Source of the DNA: Candidatus Levyibacteriota bacterium
Lineage (GTDB): Bacteria; Patescibacteriota; Microgenomatia; Levybacterales; GWA1-39-11
Assembly: GCA_030645455.1 (NCBI GenBank)
Contig: JAUSNA010000060.1
Location: forward strand, 1-38,492
Direction: 5' to 3'
DNA: 38,492 bases
Positions 26,072 to 28,451 of the stretch are shown here, in pieces; position 1 is the first letter of the stretch; the number at the start of each line of letters is the position of its first letter. The position numbers and the translations under genes are program-made. The notes below the pieces were generated by a model that was not told where the DNA came from, did no database searches, and saw nothing but the letters and a program-made list of their open reading frames with translations.

Positions 26072-26350
26072 TTACTTAATTGCCTTTTTCAAACTCTTTC
26101 CAGGAGTAAATCCAGGTGCTTTTCTGGCAGAAATAGTAATTGCCTCACCTGTCTTTGGATTTCTTCCACGTCTTGCTTTTCTAGATCTAACTGAGAAAGT
26201 ACCAAAACCAGTGATCACTACCTTTTCTCCTCTTTTAAGTGAATCACGGATTCCATTCAAAAAAACTTTAACGGATTCTTTGGCAGCTTTATTCGTGAGA
26301 TTTCCTTTTTTAGCAACAAGCTCAATGAGTTCTTTTTTTGTAACGGACAT
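26072..26350 (-). CDS. HU-family DNA-binding protein
   Basis: 92 residues. A small basic dimeric nucleoid protein that bends DNA. It shows VTKKELIELVAKKGNLTNKA, the helical body, GFGTFSVRSRKARRGRNPKTG with the DNA-inserting Arg-Asn-Pro beta-arm tip, and ARKAPGFTPGKSLKKAIK. It has a strong ribosome site (GGAGGTGA) and a near-consensus promoter (TTGACA, 17 bp, TATTGT), fitting an abundant protein. It is one of the few genes here with classical initiation signals. Confidence 0.97.
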   Translation of the reverse strand: MSVTKKELIELVAKKGNLTNKAAKESVKVFLNGIRDSLKRGEKVVITGFGTFSVRSRKARRGRNPKTGEAITISARKAPGFTPGKSLKKAIK

Positions 26351-26390: not shown

Positions 26391-26419
26391 ACAATACAAA
26401 CTATCAATTCGTTTGTCAA
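26391..26419 (-). promoter_or_regulatory. HU gene promoter
   Basis: TTGACA (26419-26414), 17 bp, TATTGT (26396-26391). It abuts the palindromic repeat at 26419-26448. Confidence 0.75.
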
Positions 26420-26469: not shown

Positions 26470-26730
26470 ATGTCAACTCTTGAAGAGAGAGTAGAAAAAA
26501 TTGAGCAAAGGAATAAAAAGGTTGAGTCGGATAAAGCATGGGAAGGAAGCTGGACGAGAAAAATTGTACTAATTTTGTTTACATATCTTGCAATTGGACT
26601 ATATTTAAGTGCCATTGAGATTGACCGTCCCTGGATCAATGCCATCGTCCCATCATTAGGTTTTTTGCTTTCAACATTAACATTACCCTTCATCAAAACC
26701 TGGTGGGTAAAAAATATTTATAAGAAGTAA
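26470..26730 (+). CDS. Small membrane protein, coiled-coil plus two helices
   Basis: 86 residues. The N-terminus (STLEERVEKIEQRNKKVESD) is a short charged coiled coil. It is followed by two hydrophobic segments: about residues 30-48 (KIVLILFTYLAIGLYL) and about 56-73 (INAIVPSLGFLLSTLTL), then WWVKNIYKK. The family is unknown to me, though small proteins of this layout are common in CPR genomes. The ATG at 26470 is chosen because an extended -10 consensus ends 6 nt upstream; the longer frame from 26413 would begin in the palindromic repeat. It converges with the stranded copy of the rny 3' end 4 bp downstream. Confidence 0.8.
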   Translation: MSTLEERVEKIEQRNKKVESDKAWEGSWTRKIVLILFTYLAIGLYLSAIEIDRPWINAIVPSLGFLLSTLTLPFIKTWWVKNIYKK

Positions 26731-26733
26731 ACT

Positions 26734-26772
26734 CTACTCTTTAGGCTCGGTAACGCGGAATTCGCGGATAAG
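26734..26772 (-). pseudogene. Stranded copy of the rny 3' end
   Basis: This 39-bp stretch matches the last 13 codons of rny (27294-27332) at 33 of 39 positions and, read on the minus strand, encodes LIREFRVTEPKE plus TAG against VIREFRITEPKE plus TAG in rny. Three of the five changed codons are silent and two are conservative. It is cut off from any rny body by the HTH gene, so it is a remnant or an attachment-site-like duplicate. Confidence 0.75.
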
Positions 26773-26798
26773 ATATATTTCTATACGAAGTTATCAGA

Positions 26799-27257
26799 TT
26801 ATCTTGCTATCGTATTAATCTTTGTTACAACATCAAAGCATAATTTAAACTGATCCTCTCGCTCTACCTCTGTAAGAACGTCTAAATCAACATCAAATAA
26901 TTCAAGTAGAGATGGGCTCTTATGGAATTGAAAAAAATCAGGATGAGAACTTGCTCTAATTGCCCCTAAAAGAGAGGAATTCATATAGCTAGAAACGGTC
27001 TGTCTTGTAACTCCAATACTTTTTGCTAAATTTAAATCACCGTTTTTTGTACCTAAATCTCTAGCAACCATAGCATTAAATATGGTCAAATACTTGATCC
27101 AGAAATCTGGATAAATATTGCTAGGGTTTTGTTCCGATGTTTCTACTAAATTGGAAATAGTGCCTAGAAAGGGAGGGTTTACCAGCAATATATTATTAAA
27201 TCTTGGATCTTGTTTTACTCGTTCTTCAAGTGGTATTTGCTGTGGTATCTCTGTCAT
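26799..27257 (-). CDS. Small helix-turn-helix protein, cassette gene inserted at the rny 3' end
   Basis: 152 residues. A helix-turn-helix is clear at about 76-92 (LNLAKSIGVTRQTVSSYM), the pattern of XRE/Cro-like or phage-type regulators. The flanking parts (PRFNNILLVNPPFLGTISN; FFQFHKSPSLLELFDVDLD) are unknown. No catalytic recombinase residues are seen, so it is not an evident integrase. It has a consensus promoter (TTGACA, 17 bp, TAATAT) with the ATG exactly 6 nt after the -10, so leaderless. The gene lies between two copies of the rny 3' end, which suggests it arrived as a small insertion. Its role could be regulation, plasmid- or phage-type control, or directing the insertion. Confidence 0.8.
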   Translation of the reverse strand: MTEIPQQIPLEERVKQDPRFNNILLVNPPFLGTISNLVETSEQNPSNIYPDFWIKYLTIFNAMVARDLGTKNGDLNLAKSIGVTRQTVSSYMNSSLLGAIRASSHPDFFQFHKSPSLLELFDVDLDVLTEVEREDQFKLCFDVVTKINTIAR

Positions 27258-27263
27258 GAGGTG

Positions 27264-27292
27264 ATATTAATACAGCGAAACAAGGATGTCAA
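27264..27292 (-). promoter_or_regulatory. Promoter of the HTH cassette gene
   Basis: TTGACA (27292-27287), 17 bp, TAATAT (27269-27264), then 6 nt to the ATG. The -35 begins two bases after the rny stop codon. Confidence 0.75.
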
Positions 27293-27293
27293 T

Positions 27294-28451
27294 CTATTCT
27301 TTCGGCTCGGTGATGCGGAATTCACGGATAACTGTTACTCGTACGACTCCCGGAACTATCACTTTTCTATCAATTTCTTCTTTAATTTTTCTTGCCAAAA
27401 TTGTTGTCTCAACATCATCCAATTTTCCTGGGTTTACAACTACTCTTATTTCACGACCAGCCTCAAAAGCATACGCATCGTCCACTCCATCGTAATGCTT
27501 GGCAATTTCTTCCATGTCACGAAGGCGTTTCATGTAATCCTGTAAGTCTTCATGCCTTGCCCCAGGACGGGCACCCGAAATACTATCAGCAGTTGAGACA
27601 ATCATAGACTCAATTGAAGAGAAAGGCTTATCTTCGTGATGCTCTGCTACACAATTAACAATTTCACGGGGTATTTTGTATTTATTAAGTAACTCTACTC
27701 CAAGATCTACATGGCTTCCCTCTTTTTCGGTCACAATTTTTCCAATATCATGGAATAGACAACCTAATTTTACAGTTTCGACATTTGCTCCTATTTCATG
27801 CGCGATTTGCATACCGATTTTTGTTTCTTCAAGGGTATGAACGACTAAATTTTGTCCAAATGAAGTTCTAAATTTAAATCGACCGAGCATTTGTATAAGA
27901 TCAGGATGAATATTGTATGCGTCCACAGCATGCGCCAATTTTTCACCCTCTTCGAAAAGAATTTTATTTACTTCTTTTTTTTGTAGTTCTACGACCTCCT
28001 CAATTCTGACAGGTTGAATTCTGGTGTCTCTTATCAATAGCTCAAGTGAACGGCGAGCAACCTCACGTCTTACCGGATCAAAGCTTGAAAGACGAATAAT
28101 TCCCCGCTCTTCAAGGTCGACATCAACACCGGTTGCATTCTCAAAAGAACGTATATTACGCCCTTCCTTTCCGATAATCCGTCCCTTCATATCCTCATCT
28201 TCGATTTTTATAACTGAGAGTGTGTATTCGGGAAGAAAGTCGAGGGCACCGTGCTTGATGGCATCAGATAATATTTCCTGAGCTTTTTTATGTGCCTCTA
28301 GTTTTACTTCGGCCTCTGCTTCCTTGATCTCCTTTGCCATTTCAGCCTTAAGGTCGTTTTTCAACTCGTCAATAAGAAGCCTTTTTGCATCCTCTGATGT
28401 AATGTGGGCAATTTCTTCTAATTTTTTGATGTAATTTTTTCGATCGTCCAT
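27294..28451 (-). CDS. rny: Ribonuclease Y, short form without membrane anchor
   Basis: An endoribonuclease initiating mRNA decay. 385 residues against about 500-520 usually. The N-terminal membrane helix and most of the coiled coil are absent; a short charged helix (residues 1-60) leads into the KH domain (DEDMKGRIIGKEGRNIRSFE, then TGVDVDLEERG) and the HD domain with GCLFHDIGKI and AEHHEDKPF. In-frame stops upstream exclude a longer frame. The ATG at 28451 has no ribosome site. A good promoter lies about 95 nt upstream (TTGAGA, 16 bp, TATAAT), so the leader is long and contains nested hairpins and a 16-codon ORF. The 3' end is duplicated at 26734-26772. Confidence 0.93.
   Translation of the reverse strand: MDDRKNYIKKLEEIAHITSEDAKRLLIDELKNDLKAEMAKEIKEAEAEVKLEAHKKAQEILSDAIKHGALDFLPEYTLSVIKIEDEDMKGRIIGKEGRNIRSFENATGVDVDLEERGIIRLSSFDPVRREVARRSLELLIRDTRIQPVRIEEVVELQKKEVNKILFEEGEKLAHAVDAYNIHPDLIQMLGRFKFRTSFGQNLVVHTLEETKIGMQIAHEIGANVETVKLGCLFHDIGKIVTEKEGSHVDLGVELLNKYKIPREIVNCVAEHHEDKPFSSIESMIVSTADSISGARPGARHEDLQDYMKRLRDMEEIAKHYDGVDDAYAFEAGREIRVVVNPGKLDDVETTILARKIKEEIDRKVIVPGVVRVTVIREFRITEPKE

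Follow-up and report, generated by a model that had tools for sequence, protein, structure and literature searches.

The described systems that come closest to the locus investigated in this study are the streptococcal CIMEs, which reside at the 3' ends of rpsI, rpmG, fda, rplL and tRNA-Lys genes and which keep their att sites while their recombination and transfer genes have been lost (PMC7563491). Their size varies, with classical CIMEs encompassing 1.2-13 kb and microCIMEs consisting of 130-220 bp that contain no genes (PMC7563491). A small insert, apparently decayed or recombined and unusual in its order, is found at the 3' end of rny, the gene encoding RNase Y, in a stretch of 38,492 nucleotides from a Candidatus Levyibacteriota bacterium, which was analysed as a whole and is termed the window. 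Its relevant features are:

27294..28451, minus strand: rny (RNase Y, 385 amino acids), an open reading frame with HD, KH and RNase_Y_N domains
27294..27332, minus strand: proximal copy of the rny end (attL-like), VIREFRITEPKE followed by the stop, sharing 33 of 39 bases with the distal copy
26773..27293, minus strand: inserted DNA between the rny ends, a stretch that is missing as a whole from the related genome G002 in the alignment
27264..27292, minus strand: promoter-like site TTGACA-17-TAATAT, assigned by its consensus match only
26799..27257, minus strand: open reading frame of 152 amino acids, probably a small helix-turn-helix DNA-binding protein, assigned by the reading frame and weak profile matches
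26734..26772, minus strand: distal, stranded copy of the rny end (attR-like), LIREFRVTEPKE followed by the stop, with the same downstream sequence as the sole rny end of G002
26476..26730, plus strand: small membrane protein gene, convergent with rny, which marks the ancestral flank since its homologue occupies the syntenic position next to rny in G002
26072..26350, minus strand: HU-family DNA-binding protein gene, whose position downstream of rny is conserved within the order

The identity of rny is reflected in the Pfam matches of its product to HD (6.5e-17), RNase_Y_N (5.4e-14) and KH_1 (7e-7), and one full-length orthologue is found in each of 58 out of 60 relatives. Upstream of the ATG at 28451 only about eight codons are open and the protein contains no N-terminal membrane anchor, unlike the membrane-anchored RNase Y of Firmicutes; relatives from the order are similarly short, with open frames of mostly 390-450 amino acids.

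Both copies of the rny end comprise 13 codons on the same strand with a start-to-start distance of 560 bp, and they are identical at 33 of 39 positions, or at 34 of 39 if the compared frame is moved by one base. This repeat, which had been described in an earlier note on the same DNA, is confirmed by our analysis, with a probability of about 8e-10 (a binomial estimate) for such a match to occur by chance anywhere in the window on either strand. It also does not constitute a common motif unrelated to the gene, since its core is specific to rny and was found at no place in the genome besides the two rny ends, even if three mismatches were permitted. For the ends and starts of the other main genes of the window, no second copy exceeding 26 of 39 bases was detected. 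The identity extends from 36 bp before the stop codon up to the stop, where it ends, and such identity running to the stop codon is the usual anatomy of attachment sites at gene ends. Within this region, both ends share the blocks TTATCCG, GAATTCCGC and ACCGAGCC of 7, 9 and 8 identical bp, which are long enough for the crossover of 6-8 bp that is characteristic of tyrosine recombinases.

The origin of both copies is illustrated by G002, a genome of another genus within the same family whose rny protein is 76% identical. Here, rny ends with IREFRTTEPKE and a stop and is directly followed by the convergent small membrane gene, the HU gene and miaA. The sequence behind the stop is TTTCACTTCTTATAAATATTTTTT in G002, compared to AGTTTACTTCTTATAAATATTTTTT behind the distal copy in the window. 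In a global alignment, the stretch of the insert is missing from G002, with synteny preserved on both flanks. Since rny of G002 is joined to the membrane gene at the position of the distal copy, the latter is the original end, and the present end of rny has consequently arrived with the 560-bp insert. The locus thus contains an insertion at the 3' end of rny that has brought a replacement end. As relatives keep rny followed by HU without such an insert, an insertion in this lineage is more parsimonious than repeated loss. The empty site that the earlier note had proposed to look for is therefore found in G002, and together with the alignment it supports the proposed insertion at the end of rny that restored the gene and stranded its old end. 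The synteny of both flanks with G002 also bears on an assembly chimera of two strains within a metagenome bin, which we consider an extremely unlikely origin: although the 82 contigs of the genome and its contamination of 3.8% are consistent with such a bin, a possible joint would extend over few identical bases, far below usual assembly overlaps.

The membrane gene, whose start was chosen by comparison with G002 (the longest open reading frame starting at 26413), is itself an earlier arrival in the spacer between rny and HU. Among the family members inspected, it was found at this position only in the source genome and in G002.

The two ends of rny differ by six base changes, four of them at third positions, which affect five codons, three silently and two with conservative replacements (V/L and I/V). 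When one copy was changed randomly in simulations, amino acid differences that are as few and as conservative were obtained in about 0.3% of cases (P ~0.003) and no more than two amino acid changes in about 5% (P ~0.05). Since simulated neutral change is rarely so conservative, the two sequences resemble two selected rny ends rather than a drifted duplicate, which bears out the claim that the copy has diverged as coding sequence. This renders it very unlikely that the rny end was duplicated locally and diverged later, with a small gene that originated between the copies or was acquired there. Such an origin would account for the codons ACC GAG and the stop codon TAG that are present in both ends and whose combination was not seen in the relatives, but the differences are too conservative for a copy that is free of selection, and the repeat stops at the stop codon and not at an arbitrary place. 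Compared to seven relatives of the family, the best match of either end was at most 30 of 39 bases and, as both ends are closer to each other (33 of 39), the donor is probably nearer to the host than G002. The new rny end would thus probably originate from a close relative, perhaps of the same genus as the host. A candidate donor locus, where the small gene would lie beside an rny that has only one end, was absent from all genomes searched, a sample that includes no congeneric genome.

The inserted DNA has a GC content of 0.336, compared to 0.400 in rny. Its 152-codon reading frame is the sole one between both copies and, because the chance of 152 open codons in a sequence of such composition is about 8e-6, it is very probably a gene. 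The promoter-like site starts with its first hexamer at 27292, two bases past the rny stop, and its second hexamer ends at a distance of six bases from the ATG, which suggests that the transcript of the small gene would likely be leaderless. Promoter-like sites in the region showed no enrichment over shuffled sequences. The encoded protein matches Pfam HTH_3 at residues 77-93 with E = 0.06 and 13.8 bits, compared to a cut-off of 23, two DNA-binding families of PHROG with E values of 0.34 and 0.51, and the LexA-like chain 2kpj with an E value of 0.44. These weak matches are all below their cut-offs and coincide near residues 71-95, and the resemblance of the motif LAKSIGVTRQTVSSYM to a helix-turn-helix is suggestive only. 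A prediction by AlphaFold from the single sequence was poor (pLDDT 41, pTM 0.25). Our best guess, based on these sequence features, is that the protein may act as a small DNA-binding regulator. Hence, from the proposed single helix-turn-helix gene with a consensus promoter, the single gene and the promoter-like site are retained, whereas the helix-turn-helix signal stays below the cut-off and the promoter-like sites are not enriched.

The gene is present in a single copy in its genome, and no credible homologue was found in 60 relatives, 374 genomes of the class and 380 genomes of the phylum, overlapping samples with about 750 genomes in all. Equally, nothing credible was obtained in searches of GTDB contigs, viral contigs, phages, plasmids, Pfam, PHROGs, NCBIfam, PADLOC and the PDB. 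Nine matches in the phylum with E < 0.05 were all partial and not credible: the best of them, in G646 (E 1.9e-5), crosses six stop codons in a methylase-like gene that is read on its reverse strand, while others are located inside unrelated proteins.

The earlier note had favoured a minimal non-autonomous cassette for which the rny end would serve as attachment site and whose movement would depend on a recombinase acting in trans from another locus. This proposal, which we regard as rather improbable, would agree with the presence of one gene between attL- and attR-like ends and with three tyrosine recombinases encoded in the genome. However, the insert is present in a single copy, the search for homologues of its gene described above was negative, the core of the repeat is absent elsewhere in the genome, and the similarity between the insert ends and the neighbourhoods of the recombinases is at chance level. 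A search for doubled rny ends flanking other cassettes, which had been suggested as a test, provided no further example: among the matches listed for 82 genomes of the order, a second copy of the IREFR codons beside rny was found only in this locus, and the inspection of the downstream DNA in about 50 genomes (including one set of 40 loci, nine of which were left out) revealed no additional case. The trans-mobilized cassette is thus unsupported. For the more specific idea of a complete one-gene cassette that would target the 3' end of rny with a host or helper tyrosine recombinase acting in trans and its own gene controlling its state, we see a distinctly low probability, and the single copy, the unique site and the lack of a second doubled end among the matches listed provide no support for present mobility of the unit.

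In the sampled order, no element of any size was found at the rny end. In line with the claim that the unit contains no integrase, there is a single reading frame between the copies and no similarity to integrases was detected across the 38-kb window and those flanks of rny that were sampled; an autonomous gene-end element would encode an integrase of its own. In the stretches that were read, the three tyrosine recombinases of the genome are located among ordinary genes. One of them is encoded on a short 3.6-kb contig (G000:C82:1-3642) that also carries, as judged by eye, a gene for a DpnI-like restriction enzyme and that is possibly part of a mobile element in the source genome. Neither arm-type nor inverted integrase-binding repeats were found at the insert. 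That the block of identity begins with TTAT beside an A+T-rich stretch had raised the idea that dif and Xer might be involved; dif-like patterns in relatives were no commoner than a reversed control, and the dif site of the host was not found. An exact 13-base loxP arm (ATAACTTCGTATA, minus strand) at 26782-26794, ten bases from the distal rny end, is probably a coincidence, since a second arm is absent and the frequency of near matches in these genomes does not exceed that of a control. An integron cassette was rejected by eye, as the 26 bp between the stop of the gene and the repeat are too short for attC; moreover, the insertion of integron cassettes does not duplicate a gene end.

In most relatives, the HU gene is located 75-400 bp after rny. 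In G001 (C12:213400-233300), about 2.4 kb of extra DNA separate both genes without a repeated rny end, which illustrates that genes enter this spacer by other routes too; this DNA includes an open reading frame of 300 amino acids and a putative ATPase. The corresponding spacer of G040 contains about 1.4 kb of unrelated extra DNA, again without repeat. Both cases, where genes were gained in this manner, lend some weight to a scenario where DNA of a congener would have entered by natural transformation, with homologous recombination inside rny on one side and an illegitimate joint just before the host's rny end on the other, which we consider a genuine possibility although falling short of probable. 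Its plausibility relies on the presence of ComEC in the genome (PF03772, E 3.9e-50). Saccharibacteria naturally transform through their com system (PMC10633639), joints of 3-10 bp are known from homology-facilitated illegitimate recombination in transformable bacteria (PMC6382021), and the donor of the rny end appears to be congeneric. However, given the homology to a congener on both sides, a clean replacement without a stranded end would be expected more often, and only chance would have placed the illegitimate joint inside the final 36 bp of rny.

We assign about an even chance to the insert being a CIME-like remnant of an integrative element at a gene end, flanked by attL and attR. In this process, a foreign segment carrying a replacement 3' end of rny and a small regulator-like gene would have entered the gene by recombination within its final 36 bp, thereby restoring the reading frame and leaving the original end of the host stranded at a distance of 560 bp downstream. 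Most likely, this would have occurred through site-specific integration at the gene end by the tyrosine recombinase of a larger element that was adapted to a closely related host, followed by the loss of the remaining element including its integrase; we infer the action of this recombinase as well as the existence of a larger parent element and its reduction. Integration at the gene end is favoured by the empty site of G002 with its identical distal junction, the identity ending at the stop codon, the crossover-sized blocks, the conservative differences between the ends, the close donor and the tyrosine recombinases in the genome, and remnants without recombination genes have precedents in the streptococcal CIMEs and microCIMEs. 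A remnant is disfavoured by the absence of an integrase, of integrase-binding repeats and of elements at the sampled rny ends, by the unique core, by a gene without homologue in known mobile elements and by the spacer DNA of G001 that has entered without a repeat of the rny end. The alternatives which the earlier note had listed besides its cassette, the remnant of a larger element or recombination, are thus more likely than the cassette itself.

Events of this kind are known, and the locus provides a good small example of them at a new site. If it is the remnant of an integrative element, it would add rny to the protein-coding genes that serve as attachment sites and it would imply that remnants without integrase can be maintained down to a single gene in Patescibacteria, a group with very small genomes about whose mobile elements little is known. 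If it is a product of transformation, it would instead preserve, in a form that can still be read, a rare trace of a gene that was acquired illegitimately from a close relative. In either case, it concerns one locus in one genome, which so far leaves the general picture unchanged.

Compared to homology-facilitated illegitimate recombination (PMC6382021), the locus would share the anchoring by homology on one side and the short joint on the other, whereas a stranded copy within the last 36 bp of the gene is not predicted by this process. With ICEs, IMEs and prophages that integrate at gene ends it shares the restored gene, the old end stranded at the far side and the identity up to the stop, yet it does not contain genes for integrase, transfer or replication, and no excisionase was identified. 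The resemblance to CIMEs encompasses the location at the 3' end of a conserved protein-coding gene, the lack of recombination and transfer genes, with a single reading frame and no integrase similarity in the window, and the two flanking copies of the gene end, which as direct repeats with 33 of 39 identical bases and an empty site in G002 correspond to attL and attR. In contrast to CIMEs, the insert is found in another phylum and another target gene, and since no related ICE or IME is known at rny, with no such element at the rny ends of sampled relatives and no homologue of its gene, we classify it as CIME-like and not as a CIME. Tiny versions are also known among CIMEs and, with its 560 bp and one gene, the insert at rny would be placed between microCIMEs and classical CIMEs.
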